NCBI GenBank assembly: GCA_012522475.1
Contig: JAAYKH010000021.1
Span: forward strand, 1-64,000
Direction: 5' to 3'
Source of the DNA: Chloroflexota bacterium
GTDB taxonomy: Bacteria > Chloroflexota > Anaerolineae > Anaerolineales > Anaerolineaceae
Length of the DNA: 64,000 nt
Part shown: piece by piece, positions 2,976 through 57,727 of the stretch
Layout: each line of letters opens with the position of its first letter
Numbering within the stretch: the stretch's first letter is position 1
Program-made: the position numbers and the translations under genes
Notes under the pieces: generated by a model
Told to the model about the DNA's origin: nothing
What the model saw: the letters and a program-made list of their open reading frames with translations, nothing else
Databases searched by the model: none

Positions 2976-4085
2976 TCATTTACGCGTTGGGGAACGCATC
3001 GCCACACTTTCAACCATTCCAACCCCCAACATCAAGGTCAGTAAAGAGCTACCGCCATAGCTAATGAATGGCAGTGTCAATCCGGTCACAGGAAACACGT
3101 TTAAATTAACCCCAATATTCACAATCGTCTGGAAAAATATCAAAACCCCAAAACCATAAGCTATCAACGCACCAAAGGTATCAGCAGCATTTTGTGAAAT
3201 ATAAAAACAACGCACAACGACCAGCACCAGCAAGGCGATCACAATCAACGTTCCTGCAAATCCAAATTCTGCGGCGAGGACGGAAAAGATGAAGTCCGTA
3301 TGGCGAACCTTTAAAAAGCGCAATTGAACTTGGGAGGATTGATTATAACCCTGGCCAAACCAACCGCCCGTGCCTATCGTAATCAAGGCCTGGTCAACAT
3401 TGTAAGTTTCACCATATCGGGCATCGGGATCGGGAAAGAGAAAATTCGTGATTCGATTTCTCTGATAATCAGCCAAAAAAGAAAAACCTGTCAGCGCACC
3501 GATTAACAACACAAACATGATGAAGGCAACGAAGATTAAAATATAACGGATTTTTATACCCGCAATCCATAGGTAAGCTGCCCACATCACCAGCAATACA
3601 ATGGTCATACTTAAGTTCGGTTGAAGAAAAATCCAAATCAGCAAGCCGCCCACCACAGTCCCACTTTTAAGCAATGTATTGGTGGAAAAAGTATCCTTGT
3701 TGACTTTTGACAATAAATTTGATAATGCTAAAATAATTACAATTTTTGCTAATTCAGAAGGCTGAACCAGAATCTGACCGACCTCCAACCACCTTGCTGC
3801 ACCAAACCTTGCTTCAGCCGTATATACAAACATTAAAAAAACCATGGTCACAAGGTACATGGGAGGGATCAATGTAATCCAATATTTATAGTCAACGGAA
3901 GCGACCACAAATAACACAGCCAGGCTGATAATTAGAAACGTGGTTTGACGTTGTGGGTGGTCAACCAGCTCAATATTTCCAGCAATCGAACTGCGGATTA
4001 ATGCTATCCCAAGGATTGAAAGGATCAGTGCAGCGCCAAATAACAAGAAATCGAAGTTCTGCCAAATGTTGCGGGTATTATCCAT
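2976..4085 (-). CDS. rodA: Rod-shape SEDS glycosyltransferase RodA
   Basis: A 369-residue polytopic SEDS protein. It polymerises lipid II into glycan strands at the outer face of the membrane, together with a class B PBP. The essential acidic residue is D264 in RHTDFIFSVLAAEFG. The C-terminal signature TGLTLPFISYGGSS is at about 334-347, and about ten hydrophobic segments are visible. It is the last gene of the mreB-mreC-mreD-mrdA-minCDE-rodA operon, so its natural partner is the intact PBP2 encoded five kilobases upstream in the same operon. The start ATG is 20 bases after the minE stop. It is distinct from the SEDS-PBP fusion at 52845-55490. Confidence 0.9.
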   Translation of the reverse strand: MDNTRNIWQNFDFLLFGAALILSILGIALIRSSIAGNIELVDHPQRQTTFLIISLAVLFVVASVDYKYWITLIPPMYLVTMVFLMFVYTAEARFGAARWLEVGQILVQPSELAKIVIILALSNLLSKVNKDTFSTNTLLKSGTVVGGLLIWIFLQPNLSMTIVLLVMWAAYLWIAGIKIRYILIFVAFIMFVLLIGALTGFSFLADYQRNRITNFLFPDPDARYGETYNVDQALITIGTGGWFGQGYNQSSQVQLRFLKVRHTDFIFSVLAAEFGFAGTLIVIALLVLVVVRCFYISQNAADTFGALIAYGFGVLIFFQTIVNIGVNLNVFPVTGLTLPFISYGGSSLLTLMLGVGMVESVAMRSPTRK

Positions 4086-5933: not shown

Positions 5934-8021
5934 TTACGGGCCGTTCTCTGCGTCAATGGCTTTCAATTCGAAATAAGCATCAATTACGCGACGAACAATC
6001 GGTGCTGAAAGCGTAGCCCCTTCTGAGCCATTGTAAACAAAGGCAACCACAGCAATTTCAGCATCATCCCAGGGTGCAAAACCCACATACCAGGCATGTG
6101 ATGGCCAGGCACCAAAAATACATTTACCTTGTTCATTAGCGATATCATCACAATATTCAGCCGTGCCGGTCTTCCCTGCTGATTTGCTCGAATCGTTGCG
6201 GAACAATTCAACATGCCTTTCAATTTCATAGCGATGGGCTGTCCCATCTGTGACCACCAACCGCATGGCCTGGTTTGCCAATTCAATCACCCAGGGCTCT
6301 ACAGTTTTTTTCTCTCCAGTCGGGTTATTTCCATCATACACGTTAATTACCGGGTCAGTGGTAATATCCCAACGGTAACTAGGTGTTAATTCCTGAACAA
6401 TCGTTCCGTCTTCTGCTACAATTTTGTCGATCAGCGTCACGTCCATTAACTTGCCGCCGTTAGCAATTGTAGAAAATGAATTTAATACTTGCAGCGGGGT
6501 GGCCAGTACAAAACCCTGGCCAACAGCTGCTGTATACGTGTCACCGGTAGCCCAGTTCTCGCCAAGGTTGATGCGTTTCCAGGTGGGATTGGGAATCAAC
6601 CCATCCTGTTCACCCGGCAGTTCAATCCCAGTTAATGTACCATAGCCCAAAGCTTGGGCATATTCGCTAATGCGCCAGATTCCCAAGCCATCACCCGGAA
6701 CCTCATCCTGGTAACCACCGCCTACTTTATACCAGTAGACGTTACACGAATGAGCCACACCCCACATAAAATTTACCATGCCATGACCAGCGCGGTTCCA
6801 GCAAACAAATTGTCGCGGAACGCCGGGATCATTTTCATAAAAGCGCTGAGTTATGGTGATAATGCCGGGATCAAAAATTTCATAATCGGGCGTAACAACG
6901 CCCTCATTCAAAACTCCCAGGGCAGGCGCCATTTTAAAAACTGATCCAGGTGGATGTTCAGCCGAAATCGCATGATTAAAAAGCGGGCGCTGTGGATCAT
7001 TACTCAATTGCTCGTAGTAATAGCCAGGAATAGCCCGCTCCATGCGGTTGTTTTCATAATTCGGGTATGAAACCAAAGCAAGAATTTCCCCGGTTTTGGG
7101 GTTCATGGCAATTACAACGCCACTGTTTGAAAGGACTCTGCCCATGGCGTAGTTCCAAAATTCAATTTCATCAATCAGGGCTTCTCGAGCAATCGCTTGC
7201 AGCCTGGTATCGATGGTCAGATAAATATCATTTCCTGGAATTGGGTCAATGGGTTCATCAAGGTTTCTGATAACCTCCCCAGCAACATTGACCTCCACTC
7301 GACGAAAGCCGTTCGTCCCTGCCAGTATATCATTCATCGATTGTTCAACACCGGCGTAACCGACCTTGTCACGGTTTGCAAGAAATCCCCGTTCGGTGTA
7401 ATAGTCCTGTAATATTGCAGGAATTGGCCCTAAAAAACCAATAATCTCTGCAGTCAATTCACCAGTTGGATATTGGCGCACAGGAATAATTTCAACATCA
7501 ATGCCCGGCCATTTTTCGCGATTCTCCATGACCACCATGGCAACATCCTGTGAAACATTACATTTCAGCGCCGTGGCCTCAAAAGGCCAGTTGGTTGAAG
7601 CAATGTAGACGACTTCTTGAATGCCCAGCTCACTGAAACAGGGGGTAAAAGTTCTTACGGTTTCTTCATCTGTATCACCCAGGCTCACCGGCATATCAAT
7701 CAATTCAGATAGATCCCGAAAAATAGCCTGGATGTCACCTTCTTCACCGGGCAGATAGCCGGGAATAACAACCACATTATAAGAAGGCACATTTTGCGCC
7801 AGGATATACCCATTGCGATCGTAGATCGTCCCACGAATTGAAGGCTCGCGTATCGTACGCGTCCGATTTTCATTCGCCTGAGCCACAAAAGCAGCACCCT
7901 GCAAAATTTGAATGTCAAATAACCGCAAACAAAAGAAGCCAAACACGGTTGCGATTAAAATATACAAAATTGAATATCGCCATTTATCAAAGTTTTTGCT
8001 CGATTGCGAAAAGATGTTCAC
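5934..8021 (-). CDS. mrdA: Penicillin-binding protein 2 (class B transpeptidase, elongasome)
   Basis: A 695-residue protein with one N-terminal membrane anchor (about 15-38), a PBP dimerisation region and a C-terminal transpeptidase domain. All active-site motifs are intact: the nucleophile S360 and K363 in PPGSVFK, S425-C426-N427, and K617-T618-G619 in AGKTGTAE. It cross-links peptidoglycan during side-wall growth and should pair with RodA of the same operon. The start is GTG, overlapping the mreD stop by four bases (GTGA), with GGAGGT upstream. This intact enzyme is a useful contrast to the motif-less PBP domain at 52845-55490. Confidence 0.93.
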   Translation of the reverse strand: MNIFSQSSKNFDKWRYSILYILIATVFGFFCLRLFDIQILQGAAFVAQANENRTRTIREPSIRGTIYDRNGYILAQNVPSYNVVVIPGYLPGEEGDIQAIFRDLSELIDMPVSLGDTDEETVRTFTPCFSELGIQEVVYIASTNWPFEATALKCNVSQDVAMVVMENREKWPGIDVEIIPVRQYPTGELTAEIIGFLGPIPAILQDYYTERGFLANRDKVGYAGVEQSMNDILAGTNGFRRVEVNVAGEVIRNLDEPIDPIPGNDIYLTIDTRLQAIAREALIDEIEFWNYAMGRVLSNSGVVIAMNPKTGEILALVSYPNYENNRMERAIPGYYYEQLSNDPQRPLFNHAISAEHPPGSVFKMAPALGVLNEGVVTPDYEIFDPGIITITQRFYENDPGVPRQFVCWNRAGHGMVNFMWGVAHSCNVYWYKVGGGYQDEVPGDGLGIWRISEYAQALGYGTLTGIELPGEQDGLIPNPTWKRINLGENWATGDTYTAAVGQGFVLATPLQVLNSFSTIANGGKLMDVTLIDKIVAEDGTIVQELTPSYRWDITTDPVINVYDGNNPTGEKKTVEPWVIELANQAMRLVVTDGTAHRYEIERHVELFRNDSSKSAGKTGTAEYCDDIANEQGKCIFGAWPSHAWYVGFAPWDDAEIAVVAFVYNGSEGATLSAPIVRRVIDAYFELKAIDAENGP

Positions 8022-42703: not shown

Positions 42704-43573
42704 ATGCCAGCTTTCCAGACATTCACACAACAGGATACATCAATAACCAACGCAACCCATGCTGATCAAAGGGCCATTAGCCACTTCCTCAGCAATTGCT
42801 CCCGTATCCATCATCATTTAGATTGGCTTTCTACATCAGAGTGGATCGGCAAACAACCTTTTCTTCTTGAAAAACACCAGCAACAGATTGAAGCAATCCT
42901 TCTGGCTACACCCGAGGTTCCAGAAGTGGCATGGATTCGCCTGTTTGGTATCAGGGATCTCGAGTTACTTAAGCCCACATGGGAACAAATGCTGCATAAG
43001 GCCATAACCATTCTTAATCCATTGAGAGCAAAAACACTGGCAGCACTCGGTACCAATGAGGTTTTTTCTTCTCTGCTCATCGGATCAGGTTTCAGGCATA
43101 CTAATGATGTTGTTATCCTCGAGAATAACAATCCTGCCGAACTCCCCGTCTACACTTCAGCACAGATTGAGATCCGTCAGATGTGTGTCAATGACTTGCC
43201 AGAAGTCACTCACCTTGATCAAAGCACCTTTGCCCCAATCTGGCAAAACTCTTTAGACAGCCTTAAAAAGGCCTATCAGCTCAAAGAGGTCGCCACAGTG
43301 GCAGTTAATCAGCAGCAAATCGTTGGTTATCAGATCAGCACCGTTTTTAGCAAACATAGCCATCTGGCCCGCCTTGCAGTCCATCCGGATCACCAGGGAC
43401 AGAAAATCGCCTCACTGCTGGTGAATGATCTGTTCATGCGATTAACTGAGAAGCATATTTGTCAGGCAACAGTTAACACCCAGGCTGACAATCACCCTTC
43501 GTTAGCGGTTTATTTTAAATTTGGGTTTCAAAAAACTGGAAAGGTAATCCCTGTCTATCAATATGACCTATAA
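42704..43573 (+). CDS. GNAT family N-acetyltransferase
   Basis: A 289-residue protein. The C-terminal half (about 150-289) has the acetyl-CoA motif ARLAVHPDHQGQKIASLLVNDL and a terminal NHPSLAVYFKFGFQKTG. The N-terminal half resembles a degenerate second GNAT fold without the motif. The substrate is unknown. No strong ribosome site was seen before the ATG. Confidence 0.82.
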   Translation: MPAFQTFTQQDTSITNATHADQRAISHFLSNCSRIHHHLDWLSTSEWIGKQPFLLEKHQQQIEAILLATPEVPEVAWIRLFGIRDLELLKPTWEQMLHKAITILNPLRAKTLAALGTNEVFSSLLIGSGFRHTNDVVILENNNPAELPVYTSAQIEIRQMCVNDLPEVTHLDQSTFAPIWQNSLDSLKKAYQLKEVATVAVNQQQIVGYQISTVFSKHSHLARLAVHPDHQGQKIASLLVNDLFMRLTEKHICQATVNTQADNHPSLAVYFKFGFQKTGKVIPVYQYDL

Positions 43574-43668
43574 CTCAATAAGTCGACGCAGAATGTTCAG
43601 ATGACTTTCTGGACATTCTCTTCGATTTGTGGGAAAATCATACCATTCATTATCCAATGGAGTTCTTT

Positions 43669-44343
43669 ATGGCCACAAAACAAACAAGGCGTCAAATATT
43701 AAAAATCAAACATATCAAGCAAAAACGAAAAAAGAACAAGCGCGCGCTATTAATCGCGCTTGGGGTTGTCTTGCTAATCAGCCTGGCAATCATTTTGCCC
43801 AATTTACTGCGAGCCAAACCAAACTATAAGAGCAGCAGCACTGGGTTCACACTTGGAAACCCTGATGCCCCGATCAGCGTGGTGAATTTTTCGAGTTTTT
43901 ATTGTGGCTATTGTGAACTTTTTTCCCAGACTGACGAACCCGAATTTATTAAAAACTATGTGGACACGGGCGATGTTTTTTATCGCTATGTCAACCTGGC
44001 TTTTTCAAACGATGAAGAAACCCTGAATGCAGGAAAGGCCGCCTACTGTGCCGCGGAACAAAACCTCTTTTTTAATATGAAACCAAGTTTTTATTCAGCC
44101 TCGCGTGAACAGGACGGTTTTTCAATCTCTAACATAATTCGCATGGCGGAAGCAGCAGGTGTGGATCGTGAGCAGTTTGAAATCTGTCTTTTGGAAAACG
44201 AAACCCTGGAGAAAGCGCTGTCTGATGATATCCTTTTTGCTCAATCCATCGGTCTGACTGGAACGCCAAGTTTTTTGGTGAATGACCAGTTGGTTTTTTC
44301 TAACCAATTAATCCCCCTGGTAGAATCACTGTTGGAACAATAG
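43669..44343 (+). CDS. DsbA-like membrane-anchored thiol oxidoreductase
   Basis: 224 residues from ATG 43669 (GGAG six bases upstream; an earlier in-frame GTG is unlikely). It has a very basic cytoplasmic start, one membrane helix (about 27-46) and a thioredoxin fold with a helical insertion. The active site is C79-G-Y-C82 in VNFSSFYCGYCELF, and the cis-Pro loop is TGTPSFLVNDQLV. It probably acts on disulfides in exported proteins. Confidence 0.87.
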   Translation: MATKQTRRQILKIKHIKQKRKKNKRALLIALGVVLLISLAIILPNLLRAKPNYKSSSTGFTLGNPDAPISVVNFSSFYCGYCELFSQTDEPEFIKNYVDTGDVFYRYVNLAFSNDEETLNAGKAAYCAAEQNLFFNMKPSFYSASREQDGFSISNIIRMAEAAGVDREQFEICLLENETLEKALSDDILFAQSIGLTGTPSFLVNDQLVFSNQLIPLVESLLEQ

Positions 44344-44403
44344 TTCCAAAACTACGCGAAAGTTATTTGTATATCTCAAACAACATATAAAAACTGAAAC
44401 GCT

Positions 44404-45117
44404 TTACCCGCCAAAAAACCGTTCCAGAATCAGCATAATTAACGGTGTAACCAACAATCCCGGCAGAAAACTACCTGTCCGGATTTTTTTAACCTTCAAC
44501 AAGCTGCTGAGGGAAACCGAGATTAAAACCAAACCGCCCACAGCCGTCATTTCTGTGATCATTGCAGGGGAAAAGAATTGACTGAACAATCCGGACATAA
44601 GTGAGATTCCACCCTGGTAAATCAGAATGCTTAGTGCAGAAAAGCCCACACCAATGCCCAGAGAAGAAGCGAAAGCGATCGAAGCAAATCCATCTAAAAT
44701 TGCTTTGATGGTTAGCATTTCATAATTTCCGGTTACCCCATCCTGAATTGCTCCTAAAATCGCGATCGGTCCGATAACAAAAACCAGTGACGCGGTAACA
44801 AAACCTTCAACAAATTTTGATGATGTTCCCTGCTGGGGTCTGCCCCGATTGACCAGTTGATTTAAGATTTCTCCAAGTTTTGCCAGGTGTTCCTCTACCT
44901 GCCACCATTCCCCCAACAAAGCCCCAATTAACAATCCACCCAAGGGAACCAGAGGATTCGCTGTTTCTAAAAAAGACATTATGCCATAGGCCAGTGTGAA
45001 TAAACCCAGGCCAGACACCACTGTTTCTCGTAGTTGTGTCGAAAGGCGGGTGCCAATCAAGATTCCAAAAATAGAACCAAGCACAATGGTAGCGACATTA
45101 ATCAATGTACCAATCAT
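44404..45117 (-). CDS. DUF554 family membrane protein
   Basis: A 237-residue, glycine-rich membrane protein with about seven hydrophobic segments. Its start, MIGTLINVATIVLGSIFGIL, is typical of DUF554 (YdfK-like). The function is unknown; a transport role is often supposed. It begins three bases after the ATR gene stop. Confidence 0.82.
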   Translation of the reverse strand: MIGTLINVATIVLGSIFGILIGTRLSTQLRETVVSGLGLFTLAYGIMSFLETANPLVPLGGLLIGALLGEWWQVEEHLAKLGEILNQLVNRGRPQQGTSSKFVEGFVTASLVFVIGPIAILGAIQDGVTGNYEMLTIKAILDGFASIAFASSLGIGVGFSALSILIYQGGISLMSGLFSQFFSPAMITEMTAVGGLVLISVSLSSLLKVKKIRTGSFLPGLLVTPLIMLILERFFGG

Positions 45118-45120
45118 TAC

Positions 45121-45669
45121 TCAATCTTCTTTTGCTAATTGTATGTCGCCCCCGGAAGTAACCGTTTCATAGACCTCAACGATAAATAGCAAAGACGATA
45201 ACCGATTGAGATAGGCGATTAACACCGTTTTTTGGATCAACCCGGCTTCCAACATCTCAACTGCCCGGCGTTCAGCACGCCTGACAATGGTGCGCGCCAG
45301 GTCGATAGCTCCGCTCGCCGGAGAATCGCCTGGAATGATAAATTCCCTGGGCAAATCTATGCCTTCTTCAAGATTTTGAATCTGTGCTTCAAGCCAGGAC
45401 AAATGCTCTTGTTTGATTTGGTCGAATTTATTTGCGGTCTCTGGAGATGCTGACAATTCTGACATTAATAAATACAGGTGTTTTTGAATTTCAAGCAATA
45501 TCGTTTGAGATTTAGAGGTTACGCTTAATGCACGAGCCAACCCAATTGCAGCGTTAGCCTCATCAACACTCCCCACAGATTCGATGCGCAATGACGCTTT
45601 GGATATTCTGCCTTTACCTAAATATCCTGTTGCACCTTGATCACCTTCAGCAGTATAAAAAGAAGCCAT
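45121..45669 (-). CDS. PduO-type cob(I)alamin adenosyltransferase
   Basis: A 182-residue enzyme that transfers adenosyl from ATP to cob(I)alamin. ATP-binding front: YTAEGDQGATGYLGKGRISK. Then SVDEANAAIGLARA, and the C-terminal signature FIIPGDSPASGAIDLARTIV with RRAER. GAGGGG precedes the ATG. No cobalamin riboswitch or B12-dependent enzyme is next to it. Confidence 0.9.
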   Translation of the reverse strand: MASFYTAEGDQGATGYLGKGRISKASLRIESVGSVDEANAAIGLARALSVTSKSQTILLEIQKHLYLLMSELSASPETANKFDQIKQEHLSWLEAQIQNLEEGIDLPREFIIPGDSPASGAIDLARTIVRRAERRAVEMLEAGLIQKTVLIAYLNRLSSLLFIVEVYETVTSGGDIQLAKED

Positions 45670-45679
45670 TGCCCCTCAC

Positions 45680-47386
45680 TCATTCTTCAATCATGACCGA
45701 TGTTTCTTCCGTAGAAACAATGGTCTCATCACGACCAGCGAGGATATACCACTCGTGAACATTGTAAAACCGATCGCTGGGTTCGAACACGGGGCCAAGG
45801 ACGATACCATTGACATCGGTGCTGATTGCATAGGTATAAGTTGAATAAAATAAAGGCAATGACGGCATTTCTTTCATAAATAAAACCTGAAAATTTCGAT
45901 AAAGCCGTTCACGTTCGCCAATATCAACCGTCATCCGAGCTTGTTCTAAAAACTCGCTGGCTGAGCGATTGTCCCATTCGGCATAATTCTGTCCAGAAAC
46001 AACCTGTGCCTGACCCCAAAATGGGTAGGGGTCGGGGTCTGGTGATCGCATCAGATTGATATCAACCAAGGCCGTTTCATATTCACGTGCTTCAAGGTCA
46101 GCCAGAAGCTGCTCGTACGGTTTGGCAATCAGCTCAACCTGAAGACCGAGGGTTCCCCAATCGGATTTAATCAACGCTGCAATTTGGCTGTGTTTTTCGG
46201 TAGAAGGGTGTAAAAGTGTAACCGCGACCTCTTTGCCGCTTTCTGTGCGGTATCGTTCTGTTTCATCATCGAAATTTACCCCAGCTTCTGTGAACAGACG
46301 CTGGGCTTCATCCAGGTCAAAATTAATGTTTTCCAAATTGGTGTAATACGCCCAGGTGCCGGGCATAATCGGACCATTGGCAAGAACAGCCTGGCCCTGA
46401 AGCACCTGCTCTACCATACGCGTCCGATTGAGTGCATGCATTAATGCCTGTCGAAAGTCTGGGTTCTGGAGGAAATCAACCTCCGGGTTATCCAGATTCA
46501 GATAAACAATCGACATAAGTGGTTCGCGGACGGTGAATTGAGAAAGCGCGGGCTCTTTTAATACCTCGCTCAAAATAGACTGATGCACATTCCCAATCCC
46601 TTCAACCTCGCCACGCCGGTAGGCGTCCAGTGCCGCTTGAGAATTCGGATAATAACGAAAAATAAACTCATCCAGGTACGGACGATCCAGAAAGTATGCG
46701 TCAAAAGCTTCCAGCACCACACCAACAATTTGATCGTTTTCAACCAACAGACGTTGGTATCGAAACGGGCCAGTACCAATCGGCGCCAGATTAAATGGAT
46801 GATCGATCATTGCCTCCAGGCTCAGCCCACCAAGCAAATGTTCGGGGAGGATGCCAAATGTTAAATAATCTAGAAAAGGCGCAAAGGGTTCGGGGAGGAG
46901 AAACTGCATTTGCGTCTCAGATAATAACACGACCTCAACTTGTGCCCAGAAATTTCGCAAATCTTCAGGGATCAAAGAATGCTCTGATTTGAGAAGGTCA
47001 ACAGTGAAGAGCACGTCATTGCTATTAAAAACTTCGCCGTCGTGCCAGTACACTTCATCCCGCAAACTGAAATTGTAAACTGTGCCATCAAAGGAGACAC
47101 CCCAAGATTCAGCTAAATCTGCCTGAGGTAAACCTTGTGAATCAAAACGGACCAGGCCGTTAAATAAAAGTCGGCTCACATCCTGGTCAGGCGGGTTGTG
47201 AACACTGAGAAATGGGTTTAACCGCATGAAATCACCAATTAATGCTTCAGTGTAGATACCACCTGAAATTGGTGATGGCGTAGAAGTCATTTCTTCATCG
47301 CTATCAATTTGCTGAAGAATCAACAAAATCCCGACAATCAACCCGGTAATAAGAATAATTAGCAACTGCCAACGATATTTCTTCAT
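45680..47386 (-). CDS. ABC transporter substrate-binding protein (SBP_bac_5, peptide/solute)
   Basis: A 568-residue extracytoplasmic binding protein anchored by an N-terminal helix (about 7-25). There is no lipobox Cys. Family patterns are VSRLLFNGLVRFD, LAESWGVSFDGTVYNFSLRD, the VYWHDGEVFNSNDVLFTVDL segment, and DFRQALMHALNRTRMVEQVL. The ligand is probably an oligopeptide, but no permease or ATPase genes are adjacent. It follows secG by 100 bases and precedes the ATR gene by 10. Confidence 0.88.
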   Translation of the reverse strand: MKKYRWQLLIILITGLIVGILLILQQIDSDEEMTSTPSPISGGIYTEALIGDFMRLNPFLSVHNPPDQDVSRLLFNGLVRFDSQGLPQADLAESWGVSFDGTVYNFSLRDEVYWHDGEVFNSNDVLFTVDLLKSEHSLIPEDLRNFWAQVEVVLLSETQMQFLLPEPFAPFLDYLTFGILPEHLLGGLSLEAMIDHPFNLAPIGTGPFRYQRLLVENDQIVGVVLEAFDAYFLDRPYLDEFIFRYYPNSQAALDAYRRGEVEGIGNVHQSILSEVLKEPALSQFTVREPLMSIVYLNLDNPEVDFLQNPDFRQALMHALNRTRMVEQVLQGQAVLANGPIMPGTWAYYTNLENINFDLDEAQRLFTEAGVNFDDETERYRTESGKEVAVTLLHPSTEKHSQIAALIKSDWGTLGLQVELIAKPYEQLLADLEAREYETALVDINLMRSPDPDPYPFWGQAQVVSGQNYAEWDNRSASEFLEQARMTVDIGERERLYRNFQVLFMKEMPSLPLFYSTYTYAISTDVNGIVLGPVFEPSDRFYNVHEWYILAGRDETIVSTEETSVMIEE

Positions 47387-47771: not shown

Positions 47772-48839
47772 ATGAACGAAACCAAGTTTGCAATCCACAT
47801 TCACACCCACTACTCCGATGGCAATGCTTCTCATGAAGAGCTGGTAAAAATCGCAGCGAAAGCGGGGTTGCATGGGATCATCACCACAGATCATAACATC
47901 TGGCTGGATGGTTTGGAAGGGTATTATGGCCAGGGTAAACAGAAGGTCATGCTGCTTGTTGGCGAAGAGATCCATGATCGCACCCTCGATCCACCAGGAA
48001 ACCACTTACTTGCCATTAATGCACGCAAAGAATTATCTCGATTTAGCGATTCCCCTCAGCAATTAATCGATCAAATACAGCACAGTGGTGGACTTTCTTT
48101 CCTGGCTCACCCTGTTGAAGACCCATTGGAAGAATTCAACCAAAAGGACTTTTCATGGCGCGATTGGGATATTCATGGCTTTACCGGGATTGAGCTTTGG
48201 AACCACATGAGTGAATTCAAAAGCGTCAGTTCCGGTTATTTTTCAGCCGCGGTGAATGCCCTGTTCCCCAAACAGATGTCGCTTGGACCATTGGAGCGAA
48301 CGCTCTCGCTCTGGGATCAATTGATTGCTTCACGAATGCAGAAAATCGTCGCAATTGGTGGTGTTGACGCCCATCAACTCCAGTACAAATTGGGTCCGTT
48401 TTCGATTTGGATCTACCCATACCTCCATCATTTTAAAAGTGTGACCACGCACATCATCAACTCCAAGCCGCTCAGCGGATCATTTCCTGATGACCGGAAT
48501 ATGCTCATACGCTCACTCGAACAGGGACATTGTTTTGTCGCTTATGACTTACCGGCGCCAACCGATGGCTTCATGTTCTCAGCTAACAATGAAGAGGGTC
48601 GTTTTATTATGGGGGACGCGGTGAAAATTCAAAATGGTCTGACCTTTCAAATTTGCTTACCCAGGCAAACGCTATGCCGATTATTGAAAGACGGAAAAAT
48701 CCTTAAGGAGTGGACAGATCACAAAGTGTGCACCCATATCACAACAGACCCGGGTGTCTATCGAGTGGAAGCCTTCATTCCTTATAAGGGGAAAATGCGC
48801 GGTTGGATCTTCAGCAACCCCATCTATGCGTGGCTTTAG
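47772..48839 (+). CDS. PHP-domain metal-dependent phosphoesterase
   Basis: A 355-residue protein. The PHP metal motifs are [17 protein letters not shown] at the start, [15 protein letters not shown] and LAHPVED; the later GGVDAHQL adds a further metal ligand. It probably hydrolyses a phosphoester; the substrate is unknown. The last 4 bases overlap the end of rtcB on the other strand. Confidence 0.83.
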
Positions 48840-50293
48840 CCTTTGATCACAATCAAGGGCTTGATTAAGGCGACTTTTTTTGCTATGCCTGCACCGACAA
48901 CGCTTTCAACAACCTGGTTCACATCTTTGTAGGCTTGTGGGGCTTCTTCTGCCAGCCCGGGTAGTGACCCAGCCCGAACATCAATTCCATCCTGCTCGAG
49001 CTGTTGCAATAAGGTCTCGTCCCAAATACTGCGTTTTGCTTGCGAACGGCTCAAGACACGGCCACCTCCCTGACAGCATGAGCCAAAGCACCGTAACATG
49101 CTGGTTTCTGTGCCGGTTAGCACCCACGAACCCGTGCCCATCGAACCAGGCACCAGAACTGGTTGACCGATCTCTTGATACTCTGTGGGTAAACCCTCAG
49201 TTCCAGGCCCGAAAGCTCGGGTTGCCCCTTTTCGATGAACACAAACCATCTTTTGATCGCCGTTAACTTGATGTCGCTCAAATTTTCCGATGTTATGAGC
49301 AATATCATAGACCTGTCTTAATTGCCAACGATCGACCTTGCCAGCCAATACGGTTTCAAAAGCCTGACGCACATTGTTGGTCAAAATTTGACGGTTAAGA
49401 AAAGCATAATTGGCAGCACAGCGCATTGCAGCCAGGTAATCCTGGCCTTCATCTGATGTAATCGGAGCGCACACAAGCTGTTTGTCCGGAAGTTTGATGC
49501 CATATTTGGTAACAGCGCTTTGAAGGCGGCGTACATAATCGGTGCAAATCTGGTGACCGAAGCCGCGCGATCCCGTATGAATTTGCACAGCAAGTTCACC
49601 ACGATAAAGCCCCATTGCCCCAGCAGCCACCTCATCGAACACCTCTGTGACAAGATCAACCTCAATAAAATGGTTTCCGCTTCCCAAGGTTCCCAGCTGA
49701 TTTTTACCGCGTTCCATCGCCCGTGAGCTGACTTTCCCCGGGTCTGCCCCGGGTAAACAACCCTGGTCTTCAGTCCGTCGGAGGTCTTCCGCCGCGGTAT
49801 AAACGTCATCCTTGGCCCAATTCGCGCCCCGCAAACAAACTTCAACCATCTCAGCGTTGGATAACTTCTTACGTCCACCAACGCCAACACCGCTTGGGCA
49901 AAGCTGGTCCACAACAGTTGCTAAATCGGATAGAAAAGGCGTCGCTTCTTCTAACGTTATTCGCGAAGATAATAAGCGAACGCCACAGTTGATATCATAA
50001 CCAATTCCGCCGGGTGAAATCACACCGGTTTCAAGATCCGTTGCAGCGACACCACCAATTGGAAATCCATACCCCTGATGCATATCCGGCATGACCATAA
50101 CCGCCTCAACCAGACCTGGTAAAGTGCTGGCATTGACCGCTTGTTCAATTGAGTTATCTTTCAGCGCGTCTTGAAGTAATGCCTGAGAGGCGAACACCCG
50201 CACTGGGACTCGCATATCAGAGCGAAAATCCTTTGGAATCTCCCATTCATAATCGCTGAGTTTGGTGAAAGTTTTTTCTGTAATTGTGCTCAT
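48836..50293 (-). CDS. rtcB: RtcB-family RNA ligase with altered guanylation residue
   Basis: A 485-residue RtcB protein; the family joins 2',3'-cyclic phosphate and 5'-OH RNA ends via a GMP-His intermediate. Metal ligands are conserved: D100 and C103 (GYDINCG), N207-H208 (GSGNHFIE), H239 (HTGSRG) and H333 ([10 protein letters not shown]). The guanylation motif, normally CHGAGRxxSR, reads [11 protein letters not shown], so the nucleophile His is Gln408. This is read directly from a CAG codon. Either the enzyme is inactive, uses another residue, or has changed role. GGAGGG precedes the ATG. It is cotranscribed with archease, 11 bases upstream. Confidence 0.88.
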
Positions 50294-50304
50294 TTGATGC
50301 CCTC

Positions 50305-50715
50305 CTAAACATCAAAAGTGATGGTGATTGAAAAGCCAGTGGCCGTTCTTTCCAGATTCAGGTCATGAAATGTAACAGCCTTGATATCTCGTTCCCAGGT
50401 CAGAATCCTTCGCCCGGTTGACTGAACTGAAATTTCATTTTGGCCATTTTCAAAAGAAAAATCGGATAAGGCTAAACCTTTCTCCTCAACGAAAAACAAT
50501 AATTCGGTCAGGAAGTCAACAACTACCGTTTCATGGTTTCCATGAGGAATAGTGAAATTTTGATGCGTCTTAGATTGAGCTGTTTCCAGCACTGCATCCA
50601 TGAGGGCGTACAGTCCCTCAGCAGCCTGCTTAAGCAAGCTTGGGAAGTCCCTCGCCCAAACCTGCAGCGCGATATCTGCTGTGTGTTCAACCTCTTTATA
50701 TCCGTTCAATGCCAT
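50305..50715 (-). CDS. Archease (RtcB activator)
   Basis: A 136-residue protein with the archease metal-site motifs [12 protein letters not shown] near the N-terminus and [13 protein letters not shown] near the C-terminus. Archease speeds RtcB guanylation and turnover. The gene starts 11 bases after a minus-strand TATAAT, so its mRNA leader would be only a few bases. The next gene is rtcB. Confidence 0.9.
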
Positions 50716-50746: not shown

Positions 50747-51538
50747 ATGAACACGAATTTTGACCGTTTGGAAGCAAGATTGCGCAGTCTCTTTGAGAAA
50801 AAGCTGCCAAAACTTTTCACAGGGCACCAACCACAGCTTCCACTGGTGGAGCAAATCATTGATTTAATGCGAAGTCATACGTTAGGGGATGATGAAGGAA
50901 GCCTTCACGCACCTGACAAATACATTATCAGTGTTTCACCAGAAGATCTGGACGAATGGCAGTTGCACCAAGACATCCTCGATGAACTCACCAATTCAAT
51001 CCTCGAGATGGGAACGTCCTTGGGCTTGATCTTTTCAAAGGCCCCTCAGATTGAACTGGAACAACGATCACGGATTGCTATTGGCACTTATATGCTCACA
51101 GCTCATTTTTCCGCCTCTGATCCACATCTTTCGGATACGGCAGCATTGGATCATGACAGGGGAGATGTCAACAAATCAACCCCACCTGAAAACGCCATAC
51201 TCATCATCGACGGGAAAACCACTTACCCATTAAACAAACCTGTGATCAATATTGGTCGTCATTCAAACAATGACCTGGTGCTCACCAATCCACATGTCTC
51301 GCGCCATCATGCCCAACTACGGGTGATTAAAAATCACTATGTTGTCTTTGATGTCGGCTCAATGGGTGGTTTATTCTTAAATAACCGGCGGGTCTCACAG
51401 GCTACTTTACATGCCGGCGATGTTTTACGGATTGGGGCAGTCAACCTTATTTACAACCAGGAACCTACCAGCACCTTCCAAACATCGGTGTTCCCTGTTG
51501 ATGATTTGAACGAAAATCAGGGAGAGGGTTTTGAATGA
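50747..51538 (+). CDS. FhaA-like protein (DUF3662 + FHA domain)
   Basis: 263 residues from ATG 50747; an ORF extending 49 codons further upstream would run through archease. The N-terminal DUF3662 domain (about 1-125) contains DKYIISVSPEDLDEW. The C-terminal FHA domain (about 160-255) has INIGRHSNNDLVL, HVSRHHAQL and the DVGSMGGLFLNN loop. FHA domains bind phosphothreonine. In Actinobacteria FhaA acts in cell-wall control with Ser/Thr kinases. No kinase gene is in this window. It overlaps the next gene by 4 bases. Confidence 0.87.
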   Translation: MNTNFDRLEARLRSLFEKKLPKLFTGHQPQLPLVEQIIDLMRSHTLGDDEGSLHAPDKYIISVSPEDLDEWQLHQDILDELTNSILEMGTSLGLIFSKAPQIELEQRSRIAIGTYMLTAHFSASDPHLSDTAALDHDRGDVNKSTPPENAILIIDGKTTYPLNKPVINIGRHSNNDLVLTNPHVSRHHAQLRVIKNHYVVFDVGSMGGLFLNNRRVSQATLHAGDVLRIGAVNLIYNQEPTSTFQTSVFPVDDLNENQGEGFE

Positions 51539-51966
51539 ATGCCGTTGTGGTGCTTGGACTGCGTATCTTTTTTTTGATCGTATTATATGGTTTTGTAGGG
51601 TGGATTAGCTTCATCATATTTAAAGACCTGCAAACACTTTTCGATCTTAAGCGTTCCCAGGTTGCTCCAATTGTCCTGAGCGTCATTGTCAACCAGGAAT
51701 CTCTTGAAAAACAATACACAAAATCCGAGATTATCCTCGGGCGCGATCCAGATTGTGATCTAACCATCGCGGATGAAACCGTTTCTCTCAGACATTGCAA
51801 ACTATATTATCATCACAAACAATGGTGGGTCCGTGATTTAGAATCAACCAACGGTTCATTTATCAACAACACATTCATCGAGTCACCTGTTGTGGTGATA
51901 GATGGTGATGAATTAAAACTAGGTAAAGTCCCCATCACCATACGATTTGATCAACAGGTAAGATAG
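51535..51966 (+). CDS. FhaB-like membrane-anchored FHA protein
   Basis: A 143-residue protein with one N-terminal membrane helix (about 7-27) and an FHA domain (about 55-140): IILGRDPDCDLTIAD, VSLRHCKLYYHHK and DLESTNGSFINN. It is likely a cytoplasmic-facing phosphothreonine reader at the membrane. The order fhaA-fhaB with 4-base overlap matches the actinobacterial wall-synthesis locus. Confidence 0.87.
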   Translation: MNAVVVLGLRIFFLIVLYGFVGWISFIIFKDLQTLFDLKRSQVAPIVLSVIVNQESLEKQYTKSEIILGRDPDCDLTIADETVSLRHCKLYYHHKQWWVRDLESTNGSFINNTFIESPVVVIDGDELKLGKVPITIRFDQQVR

Positions 51967-51975
51967 GAGATCAAA

Positions 51976-52842
51976 ATGCTTGCTGCCCCTGTATTAGCAG
52001 TTATTGGCGGGTCGGGGTTATATAATTTCAGCGACTTAAAGGATACCCAGACCATTGAAGTGGACACACCTTTTGGTCCACCCAGCTCACCAATTACAAT
52101 TGGAAAATTGTCCGGAAAACCGGTTGCTTTCCTCGCACGTCACGGCATCGGTCACATCTACCCACCCAGCGAAGTCCCCTATCGTGCTAATATTTATGCA
52201 CTTAAATCCTTAGGAGTCCGCCGGATTGTCAGCGTTAGCGCCTGTGGATCATTACGCGAATCCTATGCACCCGGCCACATTGTCATTCCCAATCAAATTT
52301 TTGATTTTACGCACCAACGCAAACGCTCCTTTTTTGAAACAGGGCTGGTTGCACACGTCAACGTTGCCGATCCATTTTGCGAAGCGCTGTCAGATGTCCT
52401 TGAAGAAGCAATCCAGGAAACGGGTGCAACTTACCATCGAGGGGCGACTTACATCACCATCGAGGGGCCACGCTTCTCGACCAAGGGCGAATCAAACCTC
52501 TATCGCTTGTGGGACATCGACATCATCGGAATGACAGCCTCACCGGAGGCGTTTCTCGCCCGTGAAGCAGAAATCTGTTATGCCACCATGGCCCATGTTA
52601 CCGATTACGATGTCTGGCATACCACGCTAGAATCGGTCACTGTGGAGATGATTGTCCAAACACTTCTTAATAACCTCAGTGTTGCTCAGCAAGCAATTAA
52701 AAATATGGTCGCCAAGATTGATCCCAATGTACATTGCGGATGCGAGGATAGCTTAAAAGATGCGATCATCACCAATCAAGACCATATTGACCCTGCAATG
52801 ATCGAGAAACGGTCGTTGTTAATGAAAAAATATCTGGGATAA
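51976..52842 (+). CDS. mtnP: S-methyl-5'-thioadenosine phosphorylase
   Basis: A 288-residue PNP-family enzyme that cleaves methylthioadenosine to adenine and methylthioribose-1-phosphate. Motifs are VIGGSGLYNF, ARHGIGHIYPPSEVPYRANI, SVSACGSLRE and EGPRFSTKGES, plus GMTASPEAFLAREAEICYA. GGAG lies upstream of the ATG. It sits 9 bases after fhaB and 2 bases before the SEDS-PBP gene, so a purine-salvage enzyme is embedded in a wall-synthesis operon. Confidence 0.9.
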   Translation: MLAAPVLAVIGGSGLYNFSDLKDTQTIEVDTPFGPPSSPITIGKLSGKPVAFLARHGIGHIYPPSEVPYRANIYALKSLGVRRIVSVSACGSLRESYAPGHIVIPNQIFDFTHQRKRSFFETGLVAHVNVADPFCEALSDVLEEAIQETGATYHRGATYITIEGPRFSTKGESNLYRLWDIDIIGMTASPEAFLAREAEICYATMAHVTDYDVWHTTLESVTVEMIVQTLLNNLSVAQQAIKNMVAKIDPNVHCGCEDSLKDAIITNQDHIDPAMIEKRSLLMKKYLG

Positions 52843-52844
52843 TC

Positions 52845-55490
52845 GTGCTAAGGCTGTTCTCTCATCGGGATCAAGAGGTTCCTAACAAACACATTCAAAG
52901 CAGGTTAATGATTGTTGCGGGTGTGGTAATTTTAACTTATGGCCTGATCCTGACTCTAGCCCCTGCTATTCGTTACCATGCTGGTCTCGAACGCTTCCAA
53001 TTCCAGCACTGGATTGGCATTCTCGCCTGGTTTCTGTCATTCTCAGTTTTACACCATCAAACTCAGCGACATCTACCCGAAAGTGATCCTTATCTCCTGC
53101 CGCTTGCTGCACTTCTGAGTGGGATTGGTTTGCTCACCATCTGGCGGCTTTTTCCCAGTCTCGGGTTGCGCCAAATGGCATGGCTGGTTTTAGCCTGTTT
53201 GCTTGGTTTGATTGTTGTAAATTTCCCACGATTATTACAGTTTTTACGACGTTATAAATATATCTGGTTGGTTCTCGGCCTGTTGCTAACTGGTTTAACC
53301 ATCTTCCTGGGAACGAACCCTCAGGGTGAAGGATCAACTCGTTGGTTATATGTGTTTGGGATACACTTTCAACCCTCTGAACCCTTAAAATTGTTGTTGA
53401 TTGCTTATCTCGCGGGTTTTTTCACAGATCAGCTTACAGTTCGTGGAAAACAATTTGAGGTGTTTCTGCCAACCCTGGTGGTAACTGGTCTTGCCTTAAT
53501 GCATTTAATTTTCCAGGGCGATTTGGGAACCGCCATCATTTTCATGCTCATCTACCTAGCCATGCTGTTCACCTCGGGTGGGAGCCTCTGGGTCTTCTGG
53601 TTAACACCTGTGTTGATCGCCATTGCAGGATTGGCTGGATACATGCTGACTGACATTGTCCAGCTGAGAATAGATGCATGGTTAAAACCCTTTAGCGATC
53701 CAACAGGCGCCACCTACCAGGTGGTTCAATCAATGATCGCCATTGCAGAAGGTAATTTAATTGGAACAGGAGCTGGCCTGGGCAGTCCGGGGTTGATTCC
53801 GGTCGCTGTTTCTGATTTTATTTTTTCAGCCCTGGCTGAAGAACTTGGCTTGTTGGGCATTGCTGCGGTTATTGTCCTGTTTTTTCTCTTAATCTACCGC
53901 GGCATAAAAATCGCTGCCTCAACAAATAACTCTTTCTACCGACATCTGTCCTTAGGGCTGACTTTTTATTTTGGAATCCAGGGTATTTTGATTATCGGTG
54001 GAAACATCGGTTTGCTACCCCTCACAGGGGTAACACTCCCATTGCTTTCATACGGTGGATCATCATTGGTGGTATCTTTTTTGGGCGTTCTAACGCTGTT
54101 GACAATCAGCCACCAACCAGAGTCAGACAACCAAACCAAAACAATTCCCCTTCCGCGCTATGCGCTGATCGGCGTAATACTGGTTTTGTTTTTTATCATT
54201 GAAATTATCGGGGCAAGCCTGCTATCTTTTTGGTTTAGCCCGGCGTTAGTGGACAGACCAGAAAACCCACGCTGGATCATAGATGATCGGTTTGTACAAC
54301 GGGGAGAGATCGTTGATCGTGACAACCAGACTATCATCACCAATACCGGCATTACAGGCAATTTCAGCCGCACAAGTGACCATATCCCCCTCTACCCGGT
54401 GATCGGGTATACCGATCCGGTCTTTGGTCAAACTGGGATCGAAGCCACCATGTTCAATTACCTAAGAGGAAAAATCGGTTACACATTTGCTACCCAATTT
54501 CGTCAGCGGCTGCTTTACAATCAACCGCCCAAAGGGTTGGATGTGCGTCTGACAATAGATTTGGGCCTTCAGCGGTCAGCTGACGATCTCCTTGAAGGTT
54601 ATCAGGGTGCAATTGTAATTATGAACGCCGCCTCTGGTGAGATTTTAACCATGGCGTCTCACCCGTATTTTGATGCCGCATATTTACAAGAAGACTGGGA
54701 TACGCTTCTTGTCGATGAAACTGCACCCTTGCTCAACCGCGCCACCCAGGGTTTATATCCCCCAGGGGCAACCCTGTTCCCATTCATAATTATCGATGAT
54801 GCTTTGATAAGCACACAATTACAAGAACCTGAAGATCGATTAACAGTCAAGACCGCAGACCTCAATTGTGCCCTCAAGCCTCAAAAACCCCTTACCTGGC
54901 AAAGCATTATCGCCAATGGATGCCAAACGGCTCAAATGACGGTCGCCGCAGATGTCGGAAGCGACGCGCTCATCAATCTGTATGCTGATCTTGGCTTTTT
55001 TACCAGCCCCCAATTGCATCTTCCGGTTGCTGATGCAGCTGCGTCCAACACAATTGATCTAAACGCATTTTTTAGCGGAGAAGGAAACTTCAAGCTGAGC
55101 CCATTACAAATGACGATGGCTGTTAGTACGCTTTCTAACCAGGGCGTGTTGCCCGGCCCGCGAATCGTCAATGCCTATAATGACCCCGTTGAAGGGTGGA
55201 GCACTTTGCCAAAATTACAGGCCAATGTTGAAACATTTGACGCCGTTTCAATAAATCGGGTCAACAATCTGCTCAGACAATCAAATTATCCCTATTGGCA
55301 GGTTGTATCGACAGTTATGACAGAAGACCAGCAGCCAGTGACATGGTTTATTGCGGGTACTTCAGCAGATTGGCAAGGTCAACCCATTGCAACCGTCGTC
55401 GTCCTGGAACTTGATGCGCCTTCCCTGGCCGAATCTATCGGCAGGGCATTAATTGAAGAAGCTATTCAATTTTTAGGGCAGGCCCAGTAA
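52845..55490 (+). CDS. SEDS glycosyltransferase fused to a degenerate class B PBP domain
   Basis: An 881-residue fusion starting at GTG. Residues about 20-422 are a FtsW/RodA-type SEDS domain, with the catalytic Asp kept (D324 in VSDFIFSALAEELG) and the signature TGVTLPLLSYGGSS. One more helix (about 438-462) leads to an extracytoplasmic PBP-like domain (about 475-880). That domain has lost the transpeptidase residues: SxxK is A642-T-L-F645 in PPGATLFP, SxN is G692-C-Q694, and no KTG precedes the WFIAGTS strand. The fold landmarks are otherwise clear, so this is a pseudo-transpeptidase, perhaps an activator of the linked polymerase. It is the last gene of fhaA-fhaB-mtnP-SEDS::PBP. Confidence 0.88.
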   Translation: MLRLFSHRDQEVPNKHIQSRLMIVAGVVILTYGLILTLAPAIRYHAGLERFQFQHWIGILAWFLSFSVLHHQTQRHLPESDPYLLPLAALLSGIGLLTIWRLFPSLGLRQMAWLVLACLLGLIVVNFPRLLQFLRRYKYIWLVLGLLLTGLTIFLGTNPQGEGSTRWLYVFGIHFQPSEPLKLLLIAYLAGFFTDQLTVRGKQFEVFLPTLVVTGLALMHLIFQGDLGTAIIFMLIYLAMLFTSGGSLWVFWLTPVLIAIAGLAGYMLTDIVQLRIDAWLKPFSDPTGATYQVVQSMIAIAEGNLIGTGAGLGSPGLIPVAVSDFIFSALAEELGLLGIAAVIVLFFLLIYRGIKIAASTNNSFYRHLSLGLTFYFGIQGILIIGGNIGLLPLTGVTLPLLSYGGSSLVVSFLGVLTLLTISHQPESDNQTKTIPLPRYALIGVILVLFFIIEIIGASLLSFWFSPALVDRPENPRWIIDDRFVQRGEIVDRDNQTIITNTGITGNFSRTSDHIPLYPVIGYTDPVFGQTGIEATMFNYLRGKIGYTFATQFRQRLLYNQPPKGLDVRLTIDLGLQRSADDLLEGYQGAIVIMNAASGEILTMASHPYFDAAYLQEDWDTLLVDETAPLLNRATQGLYPPGATLFPFIIIDDALISTQLQEPEDRLTVKTADLNCALKPQKPLTWQSIIANGCQTAQMTVAADVGSDALINLYADLGFFTSPQLHLPVADAAASNTIDLNAFFSGEGNFKLSPLQMTMAVSTLSNQGVLPGPRIVNAYNDPVEGWSTLPKLQANVETFDAVSINRVNNLLRQSNYPYWQVVSTVMTEDQQPVTWFIAGTSADWQGQPIATVVVLELDAPSLAESIGRALIEEAIQFLGQAQ

Positions 55491-57223: not shown

Positions 57224-57727
57224 ATGAATGAACAGGTCCTCGTATTAAATGCGAACTTTCAACCCATCAATGTCACGTCGATGTATCGTGCCGTCAACCT
57301 GATGCTGACAGAAAAAGCAACCTTGGTTTTAAATGGTAGGGGCGTCATCCGATCGGTCTCGCAAACCTTCCCCATTCCCTCGGTTATTCGTCTTAATCGT
57401 ATGGTCAAATTTCCCAGGCCGGTGGTCAAGCTAAATCGAAAGGAAGTTTTCCGCCGAGATCACTTTGTGTGCCAGTATTGCGGAAAACAGACCAGCGATT
57501 TGCCGATTGATCATGTTATCCCACGCCATTTAGGCGGCAAAACTCGTTGGGGAAACGTTGTATCCGCATGTGGACGCTGCAACCATCTCAAAGGGGGACT
57601 GACGCCTGAACAATCTGGAATGCACCCCATCAAACGTCCCAAACGACCGCCCAACACTGCAGCCTACCTGTTTGGAAAACACCTGAACCAACAGCAGGAC
57701 TGGGAGAACTTCCTCTTAGGGTGGTAA
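57224..57727 (+). CDS. HNH endonuclease
   Basis: A 167-residue protein typical of the single-copy chromosomal HNH group. The front reads VLVLNANFQPINVTSMYRAV. The HNH site with its zinc cysteines is CQYCGKQTSDLPIDHVIPRH and CGRCNHLKGG. The biological role of this widespread group is unclear. Free-standing, not linked to a mobile element or restriction system. Confidence 0.87.
   Translation: MNEQVLVLNANFQPINVTSMYRAVNLMLTEKATLVLNGRGVIRSVSQTFPIPSVIRLNRMVKFPRPVVKLNRKEVFRRDHFVCQYCGKQTSDLPIDHVIPRHLGGKTRWGNVVSACGRCNHLKGGLTPEQSGMHPIKRPKRPPNTAAYLFGKHLNQQQDWENFLLGW

Follow-up and report, generated by a model that had tools for sequence, protein, structure and literature searches.

A SEDS polymerase fused to a PbpA-type penicillin-binding protein that lacks the transpeptidase catalytic residues in Anaerolineae

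Organisation of the fusion gene

The subject of this study is a gene within a 64,000-nucleotide stretch of DNA (referred to below as the window) from a Chloroflexota bacterium of the family Anaerolineaceae (assembly GCA_012522475.1, contig JAAYKH010000021.1), in which a polymerase of the SEDS (shape, elongation, division and sporulation) family is joined to a penicillin-binding protein (PBP). We confirmed that the open reading frame (ORF) at 52845-55490 (+) encodes, in a single chain, a SEDS polymerase, a pedestal of the PbpA type and a transpeptidase fold devoid of catalytic residues, i.e. a SEDS-pseudoPBP fusion of the RodA-PbpA type. The limits of the ORF are exact: the protein of 881 amino acids (aa) starts with a GTG codon placed 2 bases past the stop codon of the preceding gene.

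The SEDS (FtsW/RodA) polymerase domain spans residues 108-424 (53166-54116, +; Pfam FTSW_RODA_SPOVE PF01098, 1.2e-74) and the SEDS part contains about 10 transmembrane (TM) helices. It is followed by a TM helix at residues 436-463 (54150-54233, +), seen in the structure model and corresponding to the N-terminal anchor of PbpA in unfused relatives, and then by a pedestal (PBP_dimer_2) domain at residues 486-565 (54300-54539, +), which matches PF21922 (“Penicillin binding protein A dimerisation domain”) at 4.4e-6, barely above the cut-off. The remaining part of the protein (residues ~588-875; 54606-55469, +) is a catalytically dead transpeptidase fold (PF00905, 8.4e-18 at residues 588-812). This succession of anchor, pedestal and transpeptidase fold is the layout of a class B PBP of the PbpA type.

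Catalytic residues

The HMMER alignment places D324 (codon 53814-53816, +), within the sequence SDFIF, on the catalytic D262 of Escherichia coli RodA, whose replacement (D262A) abolishes polymerase activity (PMC6207328). D324 is invariant in 37 and in 63 aligned fusions, as are E332, E333 and other residues of the SEDS part. The three motifs of a functional DD-transpeptidase (SxxK, SxN and KTG), on the other hand, are all missing. The sequence ATLF (residues 642-645; 54768-54779, +) stands opposite STVK of E. coli PBP2 (YPPASTVKPY), GCQ with C693 in its middle (residues 692-694; 54918-54926, +) replaces SxN, and the region in which active relatives carry KTG (residues ~818-832; 55296-55340, +) is without K[TS]G, a pattern found nowhere in the last third of the protein. 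The initial annotation, made from the sequence alone, had described both the preserved SEDS aspartate and the loss of the three transpeptidase motifs, and was exact down to the residue numbers.

Predicted structure

An AlphaFold2 model of the fusion built from 63 sequences (predicted local distance difference test score 92.2, predicted template modelling score 0.89) substantiated the earlier assignment of the C-terminal part to the class B PBP fold. The PBP part superimposes on Mycobacterium tuberculosis PbpA (3lo7; VIA-align Z 38.8, root-mean-square deviation (rmsd) 2.9, 371 residues), and its best match is 4r3j of Atopobium parvulum (Z 39.3). The Foldseek/VIA match lists were filled by PBP chains, hence families that are not listed are not informative. 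The SEDS part matches FtsW (8bh1_A; Z 37.0, rmsd 2.4, 328 residues).

Conservation of the loss among relatives

Homologues were searched for in 100 relatives (of the same genus, family and order) and in further loci taken at the levels of order, class and phylum. The PBP parts were aligned and their motifs read, and loci with identical SEDS sequences were removed before counting. The fusion-type system is present in most of the 100 relatives, with open frames mostly of ~800-960 aa; the close named relatives are all Anaerolineae/Anaerolineales, e.g. Levilinea saccharolytica, Thermanaerothrix daxensis, Pelolinea submarina and a Leptolinea.

This survey revealed 191 distinct dead loci (164 fused and 27 split into adjacent genes) without SxxK and without KTG; four of the 164 fused ones score S.N by a loose pattern, but away from the motif. 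The active set comprises 29 PbpAs (28 split, one fused) with all three motifs intact, nearly all of them from other Chloroflexota lineages. Both the Ser and the Lys of SxxK are invariant in these active proteins, whereas only 20 of the 191 dead sequences have Ser at the equivalent of position 642; at position 645 Lys is not among their most frequent residues, and no S..K pattern occurs there. The equivalent of W834, by contrast, is near-invariant in the dead homologues (180/191). The same motif losses in every dead homologue and in none of the 29 active PbpAs mean that the loss goes far beyond chance. Had SxxK and KTG been common in homologous fusions, the initial annotation would have had to be put down to a sequence error; the motifs are lost throughout the 191 loci.

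The only fused member of the active set (L237; 3668-6568, -; 967 aa), a natural SEDS-PbpA fusion from another Chloroflexota lineage, is a one-chain protein like the fusion described here but has an intact transpeptidase active site, which shows that fusion and inactivation are separable. Two loci were left over: an intermediate retaining KTG only (L223, discussed below) and a cut-off outlier (L093; 1457-4231, +). The latter is a SEDS-PBP fusion bearing SxxK and SxN that is truncated by the end of its short contig. The genome in whose bin this contig was placed has a dead split pair (L083) as well, and L093 perhaps represents contamination.

Genetic context and ancestry of the system

The fusion gene is preceded, in this order, by fhaA, fhaB and a gene for S-methyl-5'-thioadenosine phosphorylase (MTAP). 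The fhaA homologue (FhaA_N and FHA domains, PF12401 and PF00498; conserved order) is placed at 50747-51538 (+); its ORF opens at 50600, and the Met at residue 50 (50747), right before FhaA_N, is the likelier start. The fhaB homologue (51535-51966, +) combines a TM helix with an FHA domain (PF00498; NF049868 below cut-off), and the MTAP gene lies at 51976-52842 (+; TIGR01694 above cut-off). This position of a purine-salvage gene, behind fhaB and ahead of the SEDS gene, recurs in most of the Anaerolineae relatives as well as in some other Chloroflexota.

Of the 203 SEDS loci with 2.8 kb or more of DNA upstream, 121 are preceded by two Fha genes. The order fha-fha-(MTAP)-rodA-pbpA also precedes active, unfused rodA and pbpA elsewhere in Chloroflexota (e.g. 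L244, L245 and L246, all included in this count). The fusion system thus unites in a single chain the RodA-PbpA pair encoded by the fhaA-fhaB-rodA-pbpA operon: it is identified as the fha-linked RodA-PbpA rather than as an elongasome copy by its gene order, by its pedestal of the PbpA type and by the resemblance of its fold to that of M. tuberculosis PbpA.

The initial annotation had also pointed to an intact mrdA/rodA pair elsewhere in the window as a sign of a second, different role for the fusion. That pair is real: RodA (mrdB) of the MreB elongasome (2976-4085, -), which does not belong to the fusion system, and PBP2 (mrdA; 5934-8021, -; TIGR03423 above cut-off), with intact SxxK, SCN and KTG, are encoded next to mreC and mreB. 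The possibility that the fusion is a copy of this pair was rejected on account of its pedestal type and fha gene order.

Almost all of the 60 genomes sampled have three SEDS proteins, whether PbpA is dead or active. The fusion is the third SEDS protein in its cell, besides FtsW and RodA, which might suggest that its SEDS half handles a lipid-linked sugar other than peptidoglycan and that the PBP half is a vestige aiding folding. We regard this as improbable, since the SEDS active-site residues are invariant and no change in the SEDS part was seen at the point of transpeptidase loss; moreover, in other Chloroflexota the transpeptidase of the orthologous system is intact, so that the substrate of that system was presumably peptidoglycan.

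Order of events

According to the initial annotation, the activator was first fused in and then stripped of its cross-linking activity. This order is not upheld, because separate dead PbpA genes exist in many lineages and the tree indicates one inactivation and several fusions. In a SEDS tree with 111 rows, the dead/active character requires two changes and the fused/split character nine. Split dead copies are scattered through several parts of the dead clade, and its closest relatives (L222 and L249) are both split and active. The simplest reading of these sequences is that transpeptidase activity would have been lost once, with the genes still separate, and that several fusions followed; fission may have occurred in some lineages.

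Many independent inactivations were also considered but are not supported: forcing all dead rows (including L236) into a single clade raised the likelihood above that of the unconstrained tree (approximately unbiased test, p-AU 0.577). The one clear separate case is L223 (2860-3999, -), a close relative of L222 (5100-6530, +) under the same genus code. PbpA of L222 is intact, whereas in L223 the part from the SxxK Ser to beyond SxN has been swapped for a short repeat-like GEL/EEL (Gly/Glu/Leu) linker, with KTG kept; either the active site was lost here recently and independently, or the metagenome assembly has produced an artefact. Another locus, L236 (3989-6649, -), carries a fused dead copy in a genome assigned to another class of the phylum. 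This may reflect transfer, misplacement or a separate loss, and the tree does not reject its joining the main dead clade.

Selection on the dead domain

The ratio of non-synonymous to synonymous substitution rates (dN/dS), calculated for 21 close pairs, was 0.02-0.20 for the SEDS part, 0.04-0.17 for the pedestal and 0.07-0.28 for the dead transpeptidase fold. The values for the last of these are low, as in the other domains, which indicates that the dead domain is maintained by purifying selection. Together with the motif loss shared by 191 homologues and their open frames, this practically eliminates a sequencing error or a decaying pseudogene as an explanation.

The domains nevertheless differ in conservation. 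Among pairs with a SEDS identity of 0.46-0.52, active proteins have identities of 0.35 in the pedestal and 0.40 in the transpeptidase fold, whereas in dead proteins the order is reversed (0.42 and 0.31, respectively); the loss of catalysis therefore relaxed the transpeptidase fold and not the pedestal. Such a pattern would be expected if the pedestal's job continued.

Two cysteines, C675 (54867-54869, +) and C693, occur together in all 131 long-form dead sequences. Both are absent from 57 short forms (three further short forms score one Cys), in which the SxN-bearing stretch is gone and the SEDS part, the pedestal and the rest of the fold are retained. The model of one short form (L110, 808 aa; predicted local distance difference test score 87.6) consists of SEDS and PBP parts and matches 3upp (Z 37.6) and 3lo7 (Z 36.8, rmsd 2.2). 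In the 29 active PbpAs, the equivalents of both cysteines are present in seven, one of them in nine and neither in 13. It is likely that C675 and C693 form a disulfide. The idea that this bond arose as a novelty after the loss of catalysis was rejected, in view of the seven active proteins with both cysteines; the loss was accompanied by fixation only.

The constancy of C693 at the former SxN position in the long forms could also mean that the PBP half has remained enzymatic through a different chemistry, for instance with C693 as a Cys nucleophile. This is very improbable: C693 always occurs with C675, which suggests a disulfide; both cysteines are already present in active PbpAs (L222, L245 and L246), where Ser and Lys do the work; and they are missing from the short forms, while no conserved base is found at the position of the SxxK lysine.

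Alternatively, the dead transpeptidase fold might be a binding or sensor domain, whose former substrate groove recognises a piece of the wall, a stem peptide or a partner in the envelope and which signals to the SEDS part or anchors the complex. The purifying selection on the fold, the conserved equivalent of W834 and the Cys pair of the long forms are in keeping with such a role, as are the FHA genes of the cluster, which suggest a regulated complex. In the short forms, however, the groove stretch with SxN is absent, so that a conserved groove ligand is not universal, and we consider this explanation rather unlikely. It is compatible with, and not opposed to, the activator-scaffold reading given below.

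Comparison with known systems

The fusion and the actinobacterial RodA-PbpA (encoded in M. tuberculosis within fhaA-fhaB-pstP-rodA-pbpA-pknA-pknB; PbpA structures 3LO7 and 3UN7) are the same system by descent, sharing the PF21922 domain, the PbpA fold and the adjoining FhaA/FhaB genes. M. tuberculosis PbpA, however, is a separate protein acylated by beta-lactams, whereas in the window the transpeptidase is dead and fused, and MTAP lies between fhaB and the fusion. The A. parvulum protein (4JBF, 4R3J) has the same fold but an intact transpeptidase, solved for residues 523-952 with beta-lactams; the chain numbering of 4R3J (526-952) points to a SEDS-PBP fusion as its source. E. coli RodA-PBP2 (8TJ3) and Pseudomonas aeruginosa FtsW-PBP3 (8BH1) resemble the fusion in the SEDS fold, the catalytic Asp and the layout of TM helix, pedestal and transpeptidase; they differ in having two chains, an active transpeptidase, an mrd or dcw cluster and a different PBP subfamily.

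Class B PBPs without transpeptidase activity have been engineered, and their SEDS partners are still supported. Bacillus subtilis PBP2B and Staphylococcus aureus PBP1 inactivated in this way sustain division, which has been explained by activation of FtsW through contact of the pedestal with its extracellular loop 4 (PMC8078798), and Clostridioides difficile SpoVD S311A supports division partially and requires its SEDS partner (PMC12713402). These are single laboratory point mutations, whereas the loss described here arose in nature, is complete and old, and has become fixed in most of the class.

Proposed function

The pseudo-transpeptidase is probably kept as an activator and scaffold of the SEDS polymerase, with other PBPs carrying out the cross-linking. 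The SEDS half would polymerise lipid II through the usual SEDS active site (D324), held in an active state via extracellular loop 4 by the TM helix and pedestal. The PBP half would no longer acylate stem peptides or beta-lactams, and its dead fold, often with the Cys675-Cys693 pair, may serve as a structural head that positions the complex or binds partners. The polymerase activity, the activation by the pedestal and the lack of penicillin binding are thus predictions from sequence, model and analogy. As for the analogy, fusions of E. coli RodA and PBP2 polymerise lipid II, in one study with cross-linking by PBP2 blocked by mecillinam (PMC6207328) and in another with only the TM helix of PBP2 retained (PMC10449877).

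Cross-links in the strands made by the fusion would come from other PBPs. The genome contains one class A and four motif-bearing class B PBPs, so cross-linking can be done by other genes. Candidates for this task are L005 and L006 (contig C14 of the window's genome, G000, 42885-46138), a pair of neighbouring active class-B-like PBPs with lengths of 752 and 779 aa. No clear case of compensation by extra class B genes emerged: genomes with a dead PbpA contain 4.41 genes with PF00905 but not PF00912, vs 3.64 in those with an active one (p 0.0008), a gap of about the dead gene itself.

Three points weigh against an activator-scaffold role. E. coli RodA is stimulated by the TM helix alone (PMC10449877), hence activation is insufficient to explain a dead transpeptidase fold of 290 residues that is under selection, and the retained head probably has a further role as a scaffold, sensor or partner-binding surface. 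Fusion is not required, as shown by the split dead copies. Finally, all of the evidence comes from sequences and structure predictions, for the most part based on metagenome-assembled genomes.

The description of the fusion as a “self-activated” polymerase in the initial annotation is unsupported as stated, since two FHA regulator genes belong to the same cluster and the activity may well be regulated. FHA domains bind phosphothreonine. Regulation would proceed through the FHA proteins; four protein-kinase domains are encoded elsewhere in the window's genome, and pstP, pknA and pknB were not observed among the genes immediately around the fusion. Tentatively, and with somewhat less than even confidence, we propose that the system is a dedicated third Anaerolineae synthase, permanently uncoupled from its own cross-linker and laying strands that it never cross-links itself, in which the dead PBP head (often disulfide-tied) would act only as an allosteric switch and a wall or partner sensor under FHA/Ser-Thr-kinase control.

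The existence of SEDS-PBP fusions has already been stated (PMC10449877). In the open-access papers searched, neither a SEDS fusion with a dead PBP nor a class-wide pseudo-transpeptidase was described, and nothing on point emerged concerning SEDS fusions in Chloroflexi, pseudo-PBPs or degenerate transpeptidases; this is weak evidence of novelty. The system adds a pseudoenzyme class to cell-wall biology and provides a natural test of whether class B PBPs are mainly activators or cross-linkers, a question studied until now with point mutants. It amounts to an evolutionary experiment, in which at least 191 sampled loci have kept the SEDS part, the anchor and the pedestal, with every transpeptidase catalytic motif gone. 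In addition, a fused single chain free of cross-linking activity offers a ready-to-use tool for assays of SEDS polymerases, for work on inhibitors and for structural studies.

Other genes of the window

Adjacent rtcB and archease genes (48836-50715, -) are divergent from the fha cluster; this RtcB is nearest to an intein-containing RtcB-related family, but has no intein. A stand-alone HNH endonuclease of 167 aa is encoded at 57224-57727, and its HNH part resembles that of IscB/Cas9d (NCBIfam matches below cut-off).
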